NCBI RefSeq assembly: GCF_020921035.1 | Contig: NC_063157.1 | Coordinates: 10,080,001-10,144,000, forward strand | DNA length: 64,000 bases | Source: Rhodamnia argentea | Taxonomy: Eukaryota > Streptophyta > Magnoliopsida > Myrtales > Myrtaceae | Direction: 5' to 3' | In this document: positions 561 through 61,747 of the stretch, one piece after another | Layout of the letters: each line of letters begins with the position of its first letter | How positions within the stretch are numbered: position 1 is the first letter of the stretch | Notes under the pieces: model-generated | The model's database searches: none | The model's input: the letters and a program-made list of their open reading frames with translations, nothing else | What the model was told of the DNA's origin: nothing | Translations under genes and position numbers: made by a program

Positions 561-707
561 TTTCTCATTTCTGTCGAATCCAATCATACCTGAATGTACA
601 GACACCATGCTGTAATAGTTTGAGCCACGAGAGTGGGTGAGAGAGGCTTATCCACCTTCTTGAGAGAGTCTTGTTCAGGTGTCTTTCATCTTGCTGAGGT
701 AAAAACA

Positions 708-3700
708 ATGGAATCGCTGCCACTGATCAGTGCGACGATGGTATCATCAGCACCGGCGAAGGATGTCACGCCGGAGCCCAACAGTAACACGATAGAGTGG
801 CACAGCAGGCGGTGCACGTGGGGAGGGCCGATGAGCCTCCACAGAGTCCTGTGCATGCAAGGCGGCGACGACGACGGGAGCTACGCCAAGAACTCGGACG
901 CGACCGCATCTGCAATCACCCTATCGAAGCCCTTGCTCCTGAATGCCATACGGTCCATGAAGCTCTTCCTCACATCCAAGCACGACGACTCGTTGAGGGT
1001 GGCCGACCTGGGCTGCGCCACGGGTTACAACACGCTGGCCACCGTCAACATGGTCGTGGAGGGCCTGAGGAAGAGGTACGCCGAGGAGCTGGGGTTCGAG
1101 CCTGAGTTTGAGGCCTTCTTCTCCGACCTCCCCTCGAACGATTTTAACTACTTGTTCAGAATGTTGAGCGGGGTGGTGTCCGCCGATTGCAGGCAGCGCT
1201 ACTTCGCAGCCGGCGTGCCCGGATCGTTCTACCACCGTCTCTTCCCGAGGGCAAAGCTTCATGTGGCCGTGAGCTTGAGCGCCTTGCACTGGCTCTCTCA
1301 GGTGATGATATTTCTGCACTTCCACCTATTTTTGCCGTTTCTTCTCCTTCTTGCTTCATTTTCTGCTTTCATTCACAGTGGGCATTCTATGATTCTTCGC
1401 CGTAACACGCAGACATTTAGAATAGGGTTCATTTTTTTCTTTTTCCCCCAAATTTGCAAAAACATATCTTATGAACTTGTGTCTCTCTAGGCAGATACCG
1501 GAAGAAGTCACGGACAAGAGCTCGCCGGCGTGGAACAAGGGAAGAGCATGGATCGACGGGGCTAAGGAAGAGGTGGTGGAGGCCTACGCGAGGCGGTCTG
1601 AGGAGGACCTGGACAACTTCCTGCGGTGCCGGAAGGAAGAGATCGTGGAAGGCGGGGTATTGTTCATGCTGATGGGAGGGCGGCCGAGCTCGCAACAGCC
1701 CTGCGACCAGTTGGGCGATCCGGACTCGAGAGACAAACACCCCTTCACCACCTCCATGGACCGAGCTTGGCAAGACCTCTTGGACGAGGTATGTGCATTG
1801 CGTCTTGTATATAGGTACATACGTACGGTTTCCTACTTGACGTATACGTCGTCTGATGCTGCACGTATGATCCACACACGGTCTTATCTCTTGCCGTTTC
1901 ACGTCGAACTTAAGAGACATTTGATACAAAAGTCATCATCATGCCTTTTACTTAAACCTGTCAAAATGAGTTATAAACTCATTTCTTAACTCATATATAA
2001 TATTTTGACAAGAAAAAAAAATCCTCATATATGATGCATAATAATAGGATTTAAACATAGTGCAAGTGCTGAATGGATCATAAACGGATATACAACTTAA
2101 TTAGACCCGATCCACCTCTATGACTCTCTTTTCATTTCCTCTTTTCCTCACTTGATCTCGCACTTACTTGCTCCGCATTCTCACTATAGTTTGGGTATAA
2201 ATTTTACCTAAATTGCGTTAAATGTGGAAGTGATTTGGGAATACGGGTTAGGTTGATTATGTATTGAGTACGTGTCAGGTTTGGTAGGACTCACTAATTT
2301 GTGTTACATGAAAGTTGATCAAAATAGGTTAAATATGGTTACTTAGGTCAGACTATTTTAGATCCGACCCGACTCATCCGTTTGACCGGTCTACTTCTTA
2401 CTGCAAATGCAATGCAATATCCCTTCTTGCTTTCTCCAACTTCGTAACCGGCATGACATCAGAACATAACACTTTTCTTTGCTAATTTAGGAGCCCTCCT
2501 CTCTGGATGCTATGCACGGTCAATAGTTCAATGTTTTCTTTTGTTATTCGAAGTTTTTTATTCGTGTGATGCATGGTCATATGACTAGATGTATGCGGTA
2601 AATTTCAAGCAAAGTAAAGTACCATGGAAAGTTGGGAAAATTATCCAAAAATTATTAGACCTATTGCACTTTTACTAATTCAATCCTAAAGCTTTCAATT
2701 TTACCAATTGAGTCCTAAACCTTTTCATGTTTTGTCAATTGAATTCATTCAATTAATTTTTACCGGAAATCACTGTCGTGGATGCCGACCATCCTAGGTA
2801 ACATAGTTGTTGCTGATGTGTATAATTTTAATTATATTAAAATTTTTATTCTTTGATGGCTGCTCATGAAGGCCCTAGGCGAGGCCATCGTTGCCTCGCT
2901 AGGCGTGGGCAAGGGCACGAAGGCCCTCACCAGACTCGGGTGAGGATGCCTCACCCGTTGCCGTCGGGGCTACTAAGCCCCCGCCTAGGGCCATCGCAGC
3001 CTTGCCGGACGTGGGTGAGGCTTCTAGGTCGGTGAGGGTCACCGGCGATCCATGCTAGCCTAAAAAAAAGCAAAAGAATTTTTTAAAAAAAAAATAAATA
3101 AGTTATCCATGTCAGCACCGTCCATGCCACGCAGGGCATGTAGGACGGCCGGCATCCACATCATCAATTCCCGGCCAAAATAGTCCGGATAGACTCAATT
3201 GATAAAATGTGAAAATATTTATAACTCAATCGGTAAAATTATAATTTTAGGACTCAATTGACAAAAACACAATAGGTTTAGGACTCTTTGTACAATTATC
3301 CCATGGAAAGTTTGATGTAAATCAGTTACGTGCGAGGAGAGATAAAAATCTACTGAAAAAATGACTTCCTACTCTATTTTTTTTTCAACAATCGGAGTAT
3401 CATTTAATGTGAAGTATCCGAAATCTTGAAAAAAATGGAATGATAATTGGCATGGCATTGATATAGGATACTTCATGAATTCAACAATTGCATAAAAAAA
3501 TCAATCATTTTTTATTTTATTTTGAAAAATCAAAAGAAACGGGCTTTCGGAACCGAAGGAGGCAACGGGGATTTCAAAATTTATAGTACATAGAAACTAA
3601 AAATTACTACTGAGCGTCTCGGTAGCCAGGGGTTCCATCATCGGTGGCCACCCAAGCATAACGAGTTGATAGTCAAGTCTCACCTTTAAGGAACATGGTG

Positions 3701-7297: not shown

Positions 7298-9179
7298 TTA
7301 GATGGTGTAAGGGGCAGGCAACGGCAAGCCGGTGATGGTGCCGCAGCGCTGGGCGTTGTCGGGGAGGTTGTACTCGTCCCTGAGGGATCGCTCGGGTGAG
7401 AGGACGCTGATGTACATCTCCTGGCCCAAAACCCGCCTCTCCAGCAACTCCGACCTCAAGTTCCACATGCCGGCGTTGTCGAACGTCAACATGATCGCCG
7501 CCCACGACTTGGGGAACACCTGGATCGTGTGCCTGCTCACGGCATCGAGGAGGTTGTAGCTCTTCCTCTTCTCTGGTGTCCACCTCCCGGGCTCAATGCT
7601 GAAATCACACGAGAAAACGAAAAAAAAATAATGTGAGTCAACTTGTTCGATCAATATTCGAGTCGGACTATACTTTCGTTGCGAGAAGCAACATTGTCGT
7701 TGCACCGGCAATGGGCGTAGGTGAAAGAGTACTCACGCGACGGCGAAGAAGGAGTAGCCATCGAGGTGCCACGACTGGACACTCTTCTCGTGGTTCTCGA
7801 AGATGATCTCAACGAAGGTCCGGAAAGTGATGTTGGCCACATTAGGCTCCAAGGTCACCAACTTAGGTTCTTGCTCTGGTGGGCTGTCGGGGATCACGTT
7901 GTACTTGAAGACCTTCTCAGCGGCTCCAAAGTACTCGGCGAGCTTGAGTGGGGTCACGGGATTGACGTGCGAAACGCCATTGATGGCATAGCGGAGCTTG
8001 CCGCCAACCTTGGAGGCCGAGTTCACAAGCTTGATGGTGCGGGTAATGTTGATCTGGCCGTAGTGGTAGGATCCTTGAGGGTTTGGCCTGGCGGCGCTGG
8101 CGGTCAAATTCCATCGGAAGGATCGGAACTGATTGAGCGACCATGCCCAGCCCTCGGGAGCCGGGGGGAGGACAGGGGAGGCAGGTCCCTTGCCGTTGGT
8201 GTAGCGGAGGATACGTGTGGCAGTGATCACTTGCTTGGTGAACCGGGTGGAGGCGACCATGTAGTAGTCACGGGGCTCCTGATCGGCGGTCACGAGCACG
8301 CTGAAGCACTGCCCGACATGGACGTCAAGGGACTCGTATGTGTTCTGGACGGTGTGTGATCCCTCCATCTCGACCAGCTTCATTGGGTGCCCTTGGATCC
8401 TGAAGTTGAGGGAGTTCTTCAAACCAACGTTGCAGATCCGGTACTTGTAGGTCTTCCCGGGCTTCATGGTGAAGACGGGCTCATCGCCGCCAGGGCCTTT
8501 CCCAGACTTGCCATTGATGACGACGCCGTCGGGCCTCGCGAGGGTCCGGCCACTCTCCAACAGGTCCTTGAGCTGGGTGTGGGTCTTGGAATACCAGTCA
8601 CCAATGAGGACGGTGTAGTCGTCCTCAGGATCGGCATAGGGGACAGGGATGAGGAGGCGGCTGTTCACGCGGAGGCCACCGAACCCACCGGCCGCCCGGT
8701 GCGTAGAGGTGCTGGGGTAGTAGAAGTAGCTCCCGATCTGATCCTTCACCTGGAAGTGGTAGGTGTAGTTCTTTCCTGGAAGGATAGGGCAATTGGTCCC
8801 CAAAACTCCGTCTTGCCAGGAGTTCTTCCTTTGCTGGATGCCGTTCCTGCAGTCGATAAAAATAAACCGTTAAGTCTAGTCGAAAGGTTTCGGATATCCA
8901 AAAAGAGAGAGAGAGAAGGAGGCGAAGGGGGAACCATGTCAATAGGAATGGCTCGTCGAGGTTGTTGAAGACATTGACGACGATGTTGTTGTTGGAGGTG
9001 GAGTTGATGTTGGGGCCAGGGAACTGGCCGTTGATAAGAATACCCCGCTGGGGGACGCCGAGGGGCGAGATGGTGCCGTAAGTGACGTTCCACTCGAAGA
9101 AGAAATAGGGATCCTCGGCCATCGCCACGGTGGCTCCGGCCAGGAGGCAGAACAGCGACACAAGCGTCACCCTATTCAT
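7298..9179 (-). CDS. SKU5-similar (SKS) pollen BP10/NTP303-type multicopper oxidase-like protein, copy A
   Basis: Secreted or cell-wall cupredoxin-fold protein of the SKU5-similar family, closest by memory to the SKS11-14/BP10/NTP303 pollen-tube group; enzymatic activity is unproven for the family. Exons on the minus strand: 9179-8935, 8846-7737 and 7598-7298 (245, 1110 and 301 bases; 551 residues). A signal peptide (residues 1 to about 21) precedes EDPYFFFEWNVTYG. Three cupredoxin-like domains follow with family marks PLGVPQ.GILINGQFPGP, QDGVLGTNCPI, VKDQIGSYFYYPS, AAGGFGG and SWHLDGYSFF. Laccase-type HxH copper clusters are largely lacking, as usual for SKS. Introns are 88 and 138 bases. 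Its divergent paralog at 14188 has exactly the same exon lengths. Pollen expression is inferred from the family only. Confidence 0.93.
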
Positions 9180-14187: not shown

Positions 14188-16213
14188 ATGGGTCTGCGAA
14201 TCCCGATCCTGTTCTTGTGCCTCTCAGCTTGGGCCGCGGTGGCTCGAGGCGAGGATCCTTACTTGTTCTTCACGTGGAACATCACCTATGGCACGGTCTC
14301 CCCCCTTGGGGTCCCCCAACAAGCCATACTCATCAACGGTCAGTTTCCAGGGCCGAACATCAACTCCACCTCCAACAACAACGTCGTCGTCAACGTCTTC
14401 AACCACCTCGACGAGCCGTTCCTGATCACATGGTAAATGAGCTAAACTCATATCGAGCATTAAAGCGCTCATCAGGACCCATACTTTTCGTTCTTCGTTT
14501 CTTGATTAGCAATGCATTTTTTCCCCTAGTTTTATATGTGTATCATCCTATCCCATTATAATTTTGTTTAAGATAAGAAATTGATTACGACACCATTTAC
14601 AAATTAGATTATTTACAGTGAAAAATAAAATTCGAATTCAATTGGATTCTTATTATTACCCTTTTGTTTTTGCCCTAGGAACGGAGTGCAACAAAGAAAG
14701 AACTCTTGGCAAGATGGTGTGCTTGGGACCAACTGTCCAATTCCTCCAGGAAAGAACTACACCTACCATTTCCAAGTGAAGGATCAAATTGGAAGCTACT
14801 TCTACTATCCGAGCACTGCCGTCCACCGGGCTGCCGGTGGCTTCGGCGGCCTTCGCATAAACAGCCGGTTGCTCATTCCTGTCCCTTATGCCGATCCCGA
14901 GGACGATTACACAGTCCTGATCGGCGACTGGTACACCAAGTCACACACCCAATTGAAAAGCTTCTTGGACAGCGGCCGAGCACTCGGCCGACCCGACGGG
15001 GTCCTCATCAATGGGAAATCGAACAAGAGCGGAGGAAAAGATGAGCCCCTCTTCACGATGAAACCCGGCAAGACCTACAAGTACCGGATATGCAACGTTG
15101 GCCTCAAGAACTCACTCAACTTCAGGATTCAAGACCACCCGATGAAGCTCGTTGAGATGGAAGGATCTCACACTGTCCAGAACACCTACGAGTCGCTCGA
15201 CGTCCACGTTGGACAGTGCTTCTCGGTCTTGGTTACAGCCGATAAAAAGCCTAAGGACTACTTGATGGTCGCTTCGACCCGCTTCACCAAGACCGTGCTC
15301 ACCACCACCGCTGTCGTCGGCTATACAAATGGCAAGGGACCGGCTTCACCTGAGATCCCAGCAGCTCCAGTTGGATGGGCATGGTCGCTGAATCAGTTCA
15401 GGTCCTTCCGATGGAACCTGACCGCCAGCGCTGCTAGGCCCAACCCTCAGGGATCATACCACTACGGCCAGATCAACATCACCCGCACCATCAAGCTTGT
15501 CAACTCGGCCTCTAAGGTCAATCACAAGCTCCGCTACGGCATCAACGGCATCTCCCACATGGACCCTGAGACCTCGCTCAAGCTTGCGCAGTACTACAAC
15601 GTGGCCGACAAGGTCTTCAAGTACGATCTGATCCAGGATGCCCCAGCCGCCACGGTCGGCGACAAACTCACGGTGGAGCCTAACGTGGGCAACATCACAT
15701 TCCGCACATTCGTCGAGATCATCTTGGAGAATCACGAGAATACCATCCAGTCATGGCACCTCGACGGCTATTCCTTCTTCGCGGTCGCGTAAGTCAACCA
15801 CAAGTCTTCCTATTTTTCCTAACAACATATCATCAATGTCTCAATCGAACGTTGTCTTCTAGCGGCTTCACGTGACATCTAACCGTGAGAAAACCCGATG
15901 TGATTGCGTCAGGATTGAGCCGGGGAGGTGGACTCCGGACAAGAGGAAGAACTACAACCTCCTCGACGGGGTGAGCAGGCACACGATCCAGGTGTTCCCG
16001 AAGTCGTGGGCCGCGATCATGCTGACGTTCGACAACGCCGGGATCTGGAACTTGAGGTCGGAGTTGCTCGAGAGGCGGTACTTGGGACAACAGATGTATT
16101 TCAGCGTCCTCTCCCCGGAACGTTCGCTGAGGGACGAGTACAACATTCCAGACAACGCATTGCTCTGCGGGATCGTCAAGGACATGCCCAAGCCTCCACC
16201 TTACTCCATATAG
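14188..16213 (+). CDS. SKU5-similar (SKS) pollen BP10/NTP303-type multicopper oxidase-like protein, copy B
   Basis: Paralog of the gene at 7298-9179. Exons 14188-14432, 14679-15788 and 15913-16213 (245, 1110, 301 bases; 551 residues), with introns of 246 and 124 bases at identical positions. I chose the ATG at 14188 because MGLRIPILFLCLSAWAAVARG is a good signal peptide directly before EDPYLFFTWN. Earlier in-frame ATGs at 14071 and 14122 add a charged stretch that would spoil the signal. Family marks as in copy A, including an identical NLTASAARPNPQGSYHYGQI stretch. Probably a secreted or cell-wall protein of pollen by family analogy. The pair is head to head, 5 kb apart, so it arose by an inverted duplication or a duplication plus inversion. 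Confidence 0.93.
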
Positions 16214-56570: not shown

Positions 56571-57872
56571 AATAATGATTCGACTTCAAAACATTTTCGC
56601 ACCTTGCACGGCTTCGGTTCGAGCCATGGTGGTTGCACCAGAACTAGATATCAGAAACAGAAGCTGCAGGTACTAAAGCATCTTTCAGTTTTGAAGAATT
56701 AGAGGCGCGACACTTCACCTCAGGGTGAGCACCAAAGTAAGCACCTATGGATGAAGCCCAGAATAATACAGGTCCTGGCTATTCTTAGGTTTTCAAAGAG
56801 GCATAGAACAATCGGTCGGGATGAACAAGAGACATTGTAATACGTCGTTGCCAATCAAGAATTTTTGCTAGACAATTGATAACCTCATAAATCTGTCTAG
56901 CCATCTCATGCCGGCAGAGCTTGGGTTTCATCTGTCACTAGGTCTTAGATCAAGCATAATGTACTCAGTATAGCTTTTGCTTCCGCTTCTCCTGATCTCA
57001 AGGACTACAACCAAGTCTCATCAAACCTGCAAAACGTGCGGCCGCACACGAGTATTCTTGCGAGACTATATGGGTAATCCAACACACATCCATTGAATGC
57101 TTCAACAATTCGAAGTCAGCATCTAAAGAACCTACTCACGAGCCGATGTTCTTTGTGCCACAAGTCATTGAATCGTATGTAGACCACTAAAATGAGAATC
57201 TAGAAGCACCGAATACGGATCCCGGACATCAAGTCTGTCCCATGCTCCTGTCGTGCCAAATTTCGAACTGCCATGTTGTGCTCCTGTACTCGGGACAATA
57301 AGCTTGCTATCCCAACAATGGGAGCTTTGCAAGCCAAGCTCACACTACCACCTATGATTCCTCAACTTAACAAGAACATTGAATATGAGCATTCAAAACA
57401 TCACTAAAGCAAAACCCCATCGCCTATAGCTGATGCTATTTGCCGATCAATCATACTTATGGAACCAAGATCGTTCATGTCTAGATCTTATCCATCTATA
57501 ACAAAAACAATCAATGCAAACCCCACAATCAAACTATCAAGCATATATACCAACAACATATATTCAACCCAAATGCAAACACACTAGGAACACACTAGTA
57601 ATAGTAGCAACATGACATGAACATCCACCACTCCAATAATAGTAGCTACATAACATTACAATCCATCACGTCACATGACCAGAACACCACCACAGTAGCA
57701 GCAACTAGTTATTATATCGAGTGGGACCACTCTTTTAAGTTCATACTGGTTGATAGAACAGCTAGTAGCTTGTAGCGAAACAGAAGTAGAGAAATAAACA
57801 GACCATACAAAGTCCACCCAACCAGCAGCATCCGAATCAGCAAAGGCAGTCCCTTACAGTCCAGACTTGAGC
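56571..57872. other. Between the START gene and eRF1
   Basis: Contains the 3'UTR of the START gene on the left and the 3'UTR of eRF1 on the right (convergent genes). No separate gene recognised. The minus-strand frame at 57712-57945 lies in the eRF1 3' region. Confidence 0.45.
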
Positions 57873-58242
57873 TTAATCCAGTATAGTGTATGCTTCTCCT
57901 TTCGATAGGAGGCAGCAGATTTGATCCATCGCAATTTTCAAGCACTCTCCGAGCAATATGCCCCCACCTAGAGCAAAACCATATCGTTAGCAGCCATTAC
58001 ACAGGAACTACCTAAAATGAAAAATGCCTGAAAAGAAAGTAAGGCAAAGGGTCCACAAACAGAGGACAGTGGGAGGTCCAGTTAAAAATCAAGGGAAGGG
58101 ACAGGGAACCTTGGCTAGGGTTCGCATAAATCTTCTTTCGTGCAGCGCCAAAGCAGTAGCATATAGCGCGAGAGCTCGCGCACTGGTGCAGGCATTTCGC
58201 CCCATCCTCCTGCACCAGCCGTGGGGGAGAGTTTATTGATTG
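57873..58242 (-). promoter_or_regulatory. eRF1 3' region: in-frame extension and probable 3'UTR intron
   Basis: After the eRF1 stop the same frame stays open for 76 codons (58242-58012), unusual for a 3'UTR. A probable intron lies inside it. The acceptor GCTCTAG/GTGGG, with a good branch point CTAAC about 25 bases upstream, sets its end at 57968. The likely donor is AAG/GTTCCC, starting at 58109. An intron more than 55 bases after the stop would make normally terminated mRNA a target of nonsense-mediated decay. Joined this way the extension stays open across the junction to a TAA at 57875-57873. The branch point and acceptor are seen; intron use is inferred. Confidence 0.55.
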
Positions 58243-58245
58243 CTA
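58237..58245 (-). promoter_or_regulatory. Readthrough-type stop context of eRF1 (UAG CAA UCA)
   Basis: The eRF1 stop codon and its following six bases read TAG CAA TCA, matching the CAR-YYA context known from tobacco mosaic virus to promote stop-codon readthrough in plants. Confidence 0.85.
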
Positions 58246-59556
58246 TTCAGAGTCATCATAAAATTCACCCTCATCAGAGAACTCATCAAACGAGCGGATA
58301 TCAATCTGGTAACGGAGGATCCCTCCAATCCCACCAAAACCTCTACAGAACTGGGATCCCTCTTGAGACTTGTTTGTGACAAACTCAAGCGTGCAACCAA
58401 ATCGCTTATATTCATTAGCAAACCACTCCAGAAGCGACAATTTCTCCTGAACCTCAAGCTCAGCTGCGGTGGCAGGATCCCTGAAGTTGTTCTGGTCAAG
58501 CTCTTGGTCTTTGTTCAAGTGCTTGATGATAATCTCACCAGTAGTGTTGTTCTTCGTTGTGAACCTATTGATATCCAGGTTCTCCCACACAATGAGAATT
58601 TCAACAGCACCCATCTCCAGAACTTTCAGCGTGTCATCCACACCGAAAACATATTTTCCAGTATCCTGGCTTATCTCCTCAAAGTATTTACCAATCAAGC
58701 GCTTTTCCTGAATGAACTTCACGTTGGCCAATATCTCTGAAGACAACTCGATGGCCTGGTTGAAACCATTCTCACCACCGTAAGAAACATCAACCACATT
58801 CAGTATCTTGGCCTGAAGACGAGGATCAAACATGTCAGATTGACTCAACTCAGTTTTGAAGTCTGCTGATCCAGCTAGGATAAGCCCTGAAACATTGGGC
58901 TGGCTAGTTGATGGATTAATGAAAAACTGCGTGGCTAGCTCAGCCGTCTTCCTCACATAGTTGTGGCGCTTCTCCATTCGAAGACGAGCAAAACGAAGAG
59001 CTGACTGCCCACCTCTTCCATGCTTCTTCGGCAGGTCCACACTGAATTTGTGAAGCACCTCCCTCGTATTACCACTCAGAGTCCCAAAGAGAGTCCCATT
59101 ACCATCCATAACAATGAAACCAAACTTATCATCGGATTCTAAGAGTTCATTCAGAGCTTCAGTATGGAACTTGTTGTCACACAGGTACAGAGACGCATTG
59201 ATGGGCCTGAAAGGCTCAAAATCAATTGTCACCTTCTTCTCCTTTCCATCTTCAGTAACAATTGTGCCAGTGTATAGCACAAGCCCATTAGAAGGAACCT
59301 TGCTGTAAAGCTTGAGCCTCTGCTGAGCAGACGTGATTGCGCCGAGCACAGATTGTCGATTCACCCTGCTCTTGATGTTCGATGCAGTACCAAACTCGTC
59401 ACCAAGCATTTTGGTAACTCGAGAGATTTGATCACGAGGAGGCATGATCAGAGAAATCATGCTTGTGCCATTGCCTCTTGCAGCTTCCAAAGCCTTGATC
59501 AATTTCTTGATCTTCCATATCTCAATGTTCTTGTCAGTCTCATGACCATCAGCCAT
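58243..59556 (-). CDS. Eukaryotic peptide chain release factor 1 (eRF1)
   Basis: Recognises all three stop codons in the ribosomal A site and triggers peptide release with eRF3. One uninterrupted coding exon of 437 residues, the normal length. Seen: stop-decoding motifs TASNIKS (NIKS at 60-63) and YLCDNKF (124-130), the catalytic loop GRGGQ (GGQ at 182-184), and the acidic end [11 protein letters not shown] 5'UTR intron is likely: acceptor TTTTCAG just before the leader (intron end near 59599) and donor CCCAG/GTTATC near 60366. The TATA box is at 60494-60503. The TAG stop lies in a CAR-YYA readthrough context followed by a long open extension. This fits the reported autoregulation of plant eRF1 by readthrough and nonsense-mediated decay. 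Confidence 0.97.
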
Positions 59557-60493
59557 CCCTACGTTTAAGAGCTAACAGCAAACGGTGCCAAGCGACCTGA
59601 AAATGACAATCCATCAACTCCATAAAACCAAGCACTACATCACTACAACCAGCACAATCATTCAGTAAGAACCAACAACTTCCAATCAATCGACACATTC
59701 GGTCAAGACGTTAAACCTACAATAGACATCTTCCAACCTATCAACTCCTCCAAACGAGATGACTGAGCAATCAAAACCATCTTCCCATCAATCAATTGAC
59801 ACCATAAAACACGCCATGAAGACAACAGGCACCCAAAGGCTCAGCAAGCACTATTCCATGACAATTCAGGGAAAAAAACAACATATTCTAAAGAACTGAC
59901 TACTCAAACACTGAACAAAAAAAAAAAGGAGCATAACTACAACATAACAGACTCCAAACATACGAAGATTTTCCCATCTTTCTCAGTGAGTCGCACCAAA
60001 TTTACAGATCTTCTCCACGAAAAAAGTAGATCAGGTAAAAAAGAACACCTTTTCATCATATGGGAATATTATTGTCATCAGGCATAAAAATATCTCCATC
60101 GACATGGAACACCAATGACCCATAATGAACAAACCAACTAAAACACTAAACAACAAAACCCTGACAGACAACAAGATGGGCAATCCTGAAAATCATCGAA
60201 CAACAAAATAACAGCCCGCTGCCATCCTAAGCAAACATGAAATGAACAAAACCCACGAACCCTACGAATCCTATGAACCCGAATTCAGAACAAGGTGATC
60301 AATCCAAAGAACGCAGAGAATCACAACACAGAACAAAATAAAGAGATAATATAGAGAAGGCGATAACCTGGGAGGTTATGTGGACGAGAGGTCGCGGGAC
60401 GATGGCACGACAAGGGATGATGGGAATGTCTCTGAGCTTTTTCCTCCGTTCTCGAGCGTTCCGATTTTAATAATGGGGAGGCAGGAAAGCTGG

Positions 60494-60503
60494 CATTTTA
60501 TAG
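60494..60503 (-). promoter_or_regulatory. TATA box of eRF1
   Basis: CTATAAAATG on the minus strand, about 130 bases upstream of the inferred 5'UTR intron donor. This gives a leader exon of about 100 bases. Confidence 0.6.
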
Positions 60504-61747
60504 CGGAAACCCTAACTCCGGTTCACTAACCATGGTTAAGGCGTATGCGTGAGATGGACCGACTTGCGAAGCAGATGATCCGAAGATGTAACAACAACGC
60601 AAGACACCATAGAATCCTAGTTTGACACGAGTTCCCAAACCCAAAAAAAATCAGAGGATTGGTCGAAACAGACAAAAAAACGATGATCAGCTTCACGGGT
60701 CTTATTTCGAGTTCAATTCACATAGTGGATAAATACACTCTTTGTAAAGTTTTGATACAAAGGCGATTAACTTGTTTAATCTGATGCGCTCCGCTTTAAT
60801 ATCGATGTTAATAATCTCAATCCCTACACATCCGTACATTGTCGACATTGATCGGGAAACAACATGAACACCATGATGTTCTAACTAACTAGTGAATTAT
60901 TGATTACACATAATACGAGCACAATCAATATATTGAGCGGTTAATAATTTGTATTAAGAGAATATAGCAAGGGGCGATTTAAAATTAAGCTTTCGATTCA
61001 TCGGAATGTGAATTTTCGTGCCTTATTAGAGTGTGATTCATAAACGGTATTAGAACGACATCATTTTACTTTGAATTTATCGATTCGCGCATTTGTATTT
61101 TCAAATTGAATCTTCGATTCTTTTTTATTTATTCATTTAATAAAGTCGGGTAAACTTGTAATTTTCTAATCGAATCTCCTTGGCTTCAAATATGGGTGAT
61201 TGGACCTATCGCGTTCGTTGGAGCTAACAAGAGTTTCGAAGTTGAAGGGTCGAGTAAAGTGTTCATGTTGCAAAAAAACTTTCCCTAGCTCGAGGGAAAC
61301 CTCTCTACTCACTTTATGAAGTAGCTTTTCCCTGCTTTGCTGAAGCAGACTGCCCTCTTTGTCTTTTCCTGCTTCTTCATCAACCCTTTTCCAGATGACC
61401 CCCTTTCCAAATTGGTTACTTCCTTTTCTTCTTGAGAAGGGTATAACACTCATGAACTGTTGTTATCCCCCGTGATTCTCTTCTCCTCACACACTCTCCT
61501 TTTCTGTTCGGGTCTCACCCACTGGATCTTTACTCACCTGCTTCTTCATTCTCTAAACCCTACCACATAATTACAGTTTTGCTTTCCCTTTTCTCCAGCA
61601 TCGTTTGAGAAGTTCTGGCTTCTCGCTGTTACTCAATTAGCTCCTCAGCTCTGCAAAACTTTTGCTCTACACCTTAGAAAAGGAAATTTCTACCCAGTTC
61701 TCTCCTCTTGCACCTGTTGCTGTTTACTTCTCTCTCTTTCTACATCT
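60504..61747. other. Intergenic upstream of eRF1
   Basis: AT-rich. The stretch at about 61446-61747 is pyrimidine-rich and may be the 5' leader of the DUF4283 remnant. No gene recognised. Confidence 0.4.

Follow-up and report, generated by a model that had tools for sequence, protein, structure and literature searches.

Can the stop codon of a release factor gene act as a sensor for the release factor that it encodes? A gene for eukaryotic release factor 1 (eRF1) in Rhodamnia argentea raises this question: it ends in UAG within a viral-style readthrough context, and the reading frame stays open behind it. Autoregulation of Arabidopsis eRF1-1 by readthrough and nonsense-mediated decay (NMD) was reportedly described by Nyiko et al. 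in 2017. According to the excerpts available from PMC6755094, that gene has its first stop in a CARYYA context, followed more than 50 nt further on by an intron and, close to the poly(A) signal, by a second stop; levels of its mRNA rise in upf1-1, and the readthrough element rescues the mRNA from NMD only in part. A review sets out the same feedback that an earlier note had inferred for the R. argentea gene (PMC11062462). The plant eRF1 autoregulation that this note had brought up is indeed described for Arabidopsis eRF1-1 in the accessible text of both sources (PMC6755094, PMC11062462). Ribosome profiling found no footprints beyond the Arabidopsis eRF1-1 stop, as an excerpt of PMC9293766 has it. 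Since the feedback has already been described for Arabidopsis eRF1-1, the R. argentea gene would be a further case of a known mechanism. We here describe the stop codon, the 3′UTR and the second gene copy and discuss which explanation they favor.

The eRF1 gene and its surroundings

The window analysed is a stretch of 64,000 nt, C8:10080001-10144000 of a genome of 346.7 Mb in 74 contigs. It contains the following gene:

58243–59556, minus strand: eRF1 coding sequence, 437 aa in one unbroken frame (Pfam, PDB match and motifs)

All three domain families, eRF1_1, eRF1_2 and eRF1_3, exceeded the Pfam cut-off in the translated protein. The top PDB chain, 8ip8_bl, is annotated as 'eukaryotic release factor 1' and comes from a wheat ribosome structure (residues 1–437, E 2.5e-266). 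The translation also displays the NIKS, YxCxxxF and GGQ motifs. Searches for relatives gave none from 6 pattern matches in a viral contig collection and one from 13 pattern matches in a genome contig collection: an archaeal sequence with 31% identity, with no plant relative among the matches. Elsewhere in the window, the frame 624–1490 (plus strand) bears a SAM-dependent carboxyl methyltransferase domain (Methyltransf_7, Pfam). A similar pair of multicopper-oxidase-type frames lies in opposite orientation at 7733–8869 (minus strand) and 14629–15792 (plus strand), the former above three Pfam cut-offs and the likeness of the latter judged by eye.

The first stop codon lies in a CARYYA context

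58243–58245, minus strand: first stop TAG (TC1), read from the sequence
58237–58242, minus strand: CAATCA, matching CARYYA, immediately 3′ of the stop; preceding codon GAA (sequence, base rates)

The earlier note had read the end of the gene as TAG CAA TCA, a CAR-YYA context, and this holds: TAG at 58245–58243 is followed directly by CAATCA, so that the end reads GAA-TAG-CAA-TCA and corresponds to UAG-CARYYA, the type I viral-style readthrough signal. This context is rare. In a sample of 264 kb, made up of the window and 20 stretches of C8 and read on both strands, CARYYA follows 11 of 6474 TAG triplets and 41 of 27599 stop triplets, the eRF1 site included; among the stops of 26 non-overlapping ORFs of at least 200 codons it occurs once, namely at eRF1. 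The type I signal UAG-CAR-YYA is that of tobamoviruses, as given in the available parts of PMC3542737 and PMC5382211. In viral signals of this type the hexamer is usually enough, benyvirus type I sites are tabulated with a compact stem-loop, and AA in the two positions before the stop stimulates readthrough in yeast and is common in viral cases (all from the accessible text of PMC3542737). The window eRF1 shares with the tobamovirus signal the UAG, the CARYYA hexamer and the AA before the stop, but its second codon is UCA instead of UUA. Unlike the viral type I sites, it belongs to a cellular gene, in which the extension probably serves mRNA stability. The other two signal types do not describe this site: type II consists of UGA followed by CGG or CUA with a stem-loop ∼8 nt downstream, whereas this site has UAG-CAA, and its nearest predicted stem starts 10 or 23 nt downstream; type III consists of UAG, a 3′ G or purine-rich octanucleotide and a 3′ RNA structure, whereas CAATCAAT follows the stop here.

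A canonical AATAAA is located at 58237–58232 (minus strand), 5 nt past the stop and within CAATCAATAAAC. If used for polyadenylation, it would give rise to a very short, intronless 3′UTR and hence to an NMD-immune form of the mRNA. It may be there by chance, since 107 of 6460 TAG triplets have an AATAAA within 20 nt.

A 3′UTR intron is predicted downstream of the stop

57968–58109, minus strand: proposed 3′UTR intron, 142 nt, 133 nt past the stop, donor AAG|GTTCCC (splice-site scores)
57986–57990, minus strand: branch-point-like CTAAC, upstream of the acceptor at 57968 (sequence)

The branch point and acceptor named in the earlier note are both present, CTAAC at 57990–57986 and the acceptor CTCTAG ending at 57968. 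Splice sites were scored in bits with an approximate matrix. On this scale the donor AAG|GTTCCC at 58109 is weak: it reaches 3.5 bits, among the 3182 GT sites of the strand 694 do at least as well, and ∼12.5% of donors sampled from the matrix do no better. By its score, this donor does not stand out from background. For the acceptor we considered three sites, denoted by the first exon base: 58027 with 12.3 bits, 58011 with 10.2 bits and 57967, the site of the earlier note, with 6.3 bits. The two stronger acceptors are nearer to the donor, and introns using them would end at 58028 or 58012; of the three, the acceptor at 57967 alone has the CTAAC. A pyrimidine-rich segment, 58108–58013, starts no more than 1 nt from the proposed donor, and only 1 of 60 shuffles is as good. 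In Aethionema arabicum, eRF1-1 (Aa31LG1G8330) has a 3′UTR intron 124 bp from the stop, documented by full-length transcripts in the excerpt available from PMC8641386. This distance is nearly the same as the 133 nt in the window gene, although the intron of the latter is a prediction and not derived from transcripts. Taken as such a prediction, a 3′UTR intron in the window eRF1 is likely. We also considered a transposon origin of the 3′UTR and discarded it: neither 58020–58245 nor 57500–57968 has a second copy in the genome.

The reading frame stays open across the proposed junction

58012–58242, minus strand: open frame without splicing, 76 codons up to TAG at 58014–58012 (sequence)
57873–57967, minus strand: second part of the spliced extension, with the second stop TAA at 57875–57873, 92 nt past the junction (sequence)

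The earlier note had counted 76 further open codons and had expected the spliced frame to stay open across the junction. We found the same: unspliced, 76 codons are open up to TAG 58014–58012, and with the intron 58109–57968 the frame comprises 75 codons up to TAA 57875–57873, at the lower end of the region named in the earlier note. Provided that the donor at 58109 is used, the frame passes the junction with each of the three acceptors, yielding 50, 58 or 75 codons and second stops 17, 41 or 92 nt beyond the junction. Among dinucleotide shuffles, 140 of 5000 attain 76 codons unspliced and 76 of 5000 attain 75 codons spliced. Of the 25 other long ORFs (at least 200 codons, some of which may not be true gene ends), 5 are likewise followed by at least 75 open codons. 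For this reason an open frame alone is weak evidence, and that of eRF1 is not clearly beyond chance. A poly(A) candidate, AATATA, was found at 57564–57559, ∼310 nt beyond the second stop.

The C11 copy of eRF1 has no leaky context

Two eRF1 genes are present in the genome, as found by a protein search and by an eRF1_2 family search alike. The eRF1_3 family gave a third, partial match on C6 (17–50 of 106, with one internal stop), which neither of these searches identifies as an eRF1. The second copy, on C11 (L003 2037–3347), is 93% identical to the window eRF1; the pair shows a dS of 2.5, i.e. saturated synonymous sites, and a dN of 0.043. The C11 copy ends in TAA AGC GAA, and CARYYA is absent. 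It has a strong 3′UTR intron at L003 3406–3743 (ATG|GTAAGT...CTTGCAG|GGA), 58 nt past the stop, and its spliced frame is open for 84 codons, a length attained by 165 of 5000 shuffles. With a strong intron, an 84-codon frame and TAA-AGC in C11, the intron and the spliced open frame are predicted for both copies and the leaky context is found in one. An open spliced frame can therefore occur without leaky context, as C11 shows; there, it is either a relic of an older circuit or due to chance. Since it ends in UAA-AGC, the C11 copy has probably lost the ability to sense how efficiently termination proceeds; the window copy would then be the remaining sensor. The contrast between TAA-AGC in C11 and the leaky stop in the window, with the strong 3′UTR intron and the 84-codon spliced frame retained, is new here. 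If the feedback holds, the genome retains the sensor stop in only one of the two eRF1 copies detected, and the pair would offer a natural comparison of a sensing with a non-sensing gene.

The distance of the C11 intron from the stop, 58 nt, is near the limit of ∼50 nt quoted for NMD. Despite the saturated synonymous sites, the first UTR exons of the paralogs (L003 3345–3405 and window 58242–58110) display a short similarity, GGGCGAA...GCTATATG-TACT, which 17 of 5000 shuffles reached under lenient gap settings and 134 of 5000 under stiffer ones. Over the whole 747 nt, the similarity of the paralogs is matched by 115 of 300 shuffles. We regard a putative conserved element between the two UTR exons as a lead.

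The earlier note had also suggested that the tail peptide itself may matter. This idea gained no support: the extensions of the paralogs are unlike each other, with a local alignment score attained by 432 of 2000 shuffles and a semi-global score attained by 1113 of 2000, and none of the 3 extension peptides attains the cut-off of a Pfam family (a YetF_N match in the C11 tail remains at 13.0 bits, below the cut-off of 26.5 bits). With neither a Pfam family nor similarity between the tails, a functional domain was rejected. The tail of eRF1 is probably a by-product; sparing the mRNA requires an open frame beyond the junction, whatever peptide results.

Probable readthrough–NMD feedback and alternative explanations

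We consider it probable that the window eRF1 is under the known readthrough–NMD feedback. When eRF1 is plentiful, ribosomes would stop at the UAG; the junction ∼133 nt downstream, the long 3′UTR or both would then mark the mRNA, and NMD would destroy it. With little eRF1 at hand, the UAG would be read by a near-cognate tRNA, and the ribosome reading through would clear the junction complex and halt at the second stop, so that the mRNA would be spared. The stop context for such a circuit is present, and the predicted geometry is compatible with it. Like Arabidopsis eRF1-1, as far as the excerpts portray that system, the window gene encodes eRF1, carries CARYYA directly after the stop and has an in-frame second stop downstream as well as a 3′UTR intron more than 50 nt past the stop, in our case a proposed one (133 nt, weak donor). 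It differs from the Arabidopsis gene of these excerpts in its weak donor and in that the intron is predicted. The second stop of Arabidopsis eRF1-1 is near the polyadenylation signal in the available text of PMC6755094, whereas the candidate AATATA of the window gene is ∼310 nt off. The second eRF1 copy without leaky context further sets the R. argentea genome apart from the Arabidopsis eRF1-1 system. In favor of the feedback we count the identity of the gene, the UAG-CARYYA with AA, the open frame, the position of the intron, the pyrimidine-rich segment, the C11 intron and the mechanism in Arabidopsis; against it stand the background-level donor, the frequency of long frames, the distant AATATA, the partial rescue and the absence of footprints in Arabidopsis, and the C11 frame.

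The same feedback could in principle operate without an intron: the donor would remain unused, the long 3′UTR alone would trigger NMD, and readthrough over 76 codons would shorten the 3′UTR and spare the mRNA. A weak donor, 76 codons that are open unspliced and the naming of 3′UTRs longer than 350 nt as an NMD trigger in plants (in the accessible part of PMC6755094) fit this explanation. However, the pyrimidine-rich segment starts right at the donor, the position of the intron resembles that in Aethionema (excerpt of PMC8641386) and the C11 paralog has a clear 3′UTR intron; we judge the intronless variant unlikely. Alternatively, the feedback might involve a different 3′UTR intron with the donor TAG|GTAGTT, whose first intron base, 58011, adjoins the unspliced second stop 58014–58012. 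With this donor, the junction would come to lie 231 nt downstream of the first stop and would coincide exactly with the second. An intron starting at 58011 would have to take in 57967–57706, which with a T content of 0.31 is less pyrimidine-rich than 58109–57968 with 0.43, and the score of its donor is equalled or exceeded at 97 of the 3182 GT sites of the strand. We hold this variant to be highly improbable, although its donor is, with 6.8 bits, the top one within 800 nt of the stop and forms with an acceptor at 57495 the top donor/acceptor pair (17.4 bits). Finally, the CARYYA match could be a coincidence at an ordinary stop that is not subject to regulated readthrough. At a base rate of 11 in 6474 TAG triplets such matches do occur, and the open frame and the donor are unremarkable on their own. 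Yet the match would have had to hit the stop of the plant gene best known for the CARYYA element, and we rank chance as the least probable of the explanations considered.

Predicted RNA structure after the stop

58182–58219, minus strand: hairpin 1, 11-bp stem (10 Watson-Crick pairs and a closing G-U), 16-nt loop, 23 nt past the stop (predicted fold)
58166–58181, minus strand: hairpin 2, 6-bp stem, 4-nt loop, directly 3′ of hairpin 1 (predicted fold)
58159–58164, minus strand: ATATGC, 5′ arm of a junction-spanning helix (pair probability)
57956–57961, minus strand: GCATAT, 3′ arm of the junction-spanning helix (pair probability)
58226–58232, minus strand: ACTCTCC, 5′ arm of a possible closing helix, 10 nt past the stop (pair probability)
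57944–57950, minus strand: GGAGAGT, 3′ arm of the possible closing helix (pair probability)

The folding prediction thus places a perfect, GC-rich pair of hairpins behind the stop of the window gene. A stem of at least 10 with a loop of at most 20, limits set after hairpin 1 had been seen, occurs in 0 of 1000 shuffles and downstream of 1 of 26 long ORFs, namely eRF1. Taken alone, hairpins 1 and 2 yield a z of −2.61 (4 of 200 shuffles) for a stretch picked by eye. The arms ATATGC and GCATAT pair with a mean probability of 0.95–0.96 in the 9 contexts spliced 58109/57968 and of 0.0 in 2 unspliced and 4 other-acceptor contexts. For the closing helix, the pair probability is 0.99 without upstream coding sequence and 0.05–0.44 with it. 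A 7-bp pairing from the unspliced fold, CCCCCAC/GTGGGGG, was discarded, its probability being 0.0 when spliced.

Folding energies are unremarkable for the 120 nt past the stop (z 0.25; 109 of 200 shuffles were no less stable), for 341 nt of unspliced sequence (z 0.60; 74 of 100) and with either of the alternative acceptors (z −0.01 and 0.15); the mRNA spliced 58109/57968 gives a z of −2.57, with 5 of 300 shuffles as stable, a p-value that is worth less than it appears because three acceptors were tried. With 20, 40, 60, 80, 120 and 160 nt of exon 2, the spliced z amounts to −1.04, −2.64, −2.17, −2.76, −1.01 and −2.10, respectively. Overall folding energy was hence rejected as evidence for structure, the unspliced region being no more stable than shuffles and the spliced result depending on length. 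The energy gain on joining is the best among 630 pseudo-junctions, with correlated neighbours that tie or nearly so; in the C11 paralog 287 of 600 pseudo-junctions are as good, and the spliced z ranges from 0.21 to −1.99. Rfam gave 0 matches up to E 1 for 57000–60700. A limited literature search found no report of hairpins after a plant eRF1 stop. Altogether, the structural evidence for the 3′ region, which comes from modelled folds, is modest.

In a further reading, the leaky stop would be armed by splicing and the sister copy would have lost such a stop, the two copies dividing sensing and constitutive supply between them. Removal of the intron would allow exon 1 and exon 2 to pair into a compact element composed of hairpins 1 and 2, the junction-spanning helix and possibly the closing stem from 10 nt past the UAG. 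This element would stimulate readthrough jointly with CARYYA, so that an efficient escape route would exist only for mRNAs carrying the junction mark. We regard this reading as very unlikely. Should neither the contrast in sensing between the copies nor the junction structure be borne out, the window gene would be an ordinary further case of the described mechanism. If real, the junction-dependent structure would represent a cellular readthrough signal that is completed by splicing.
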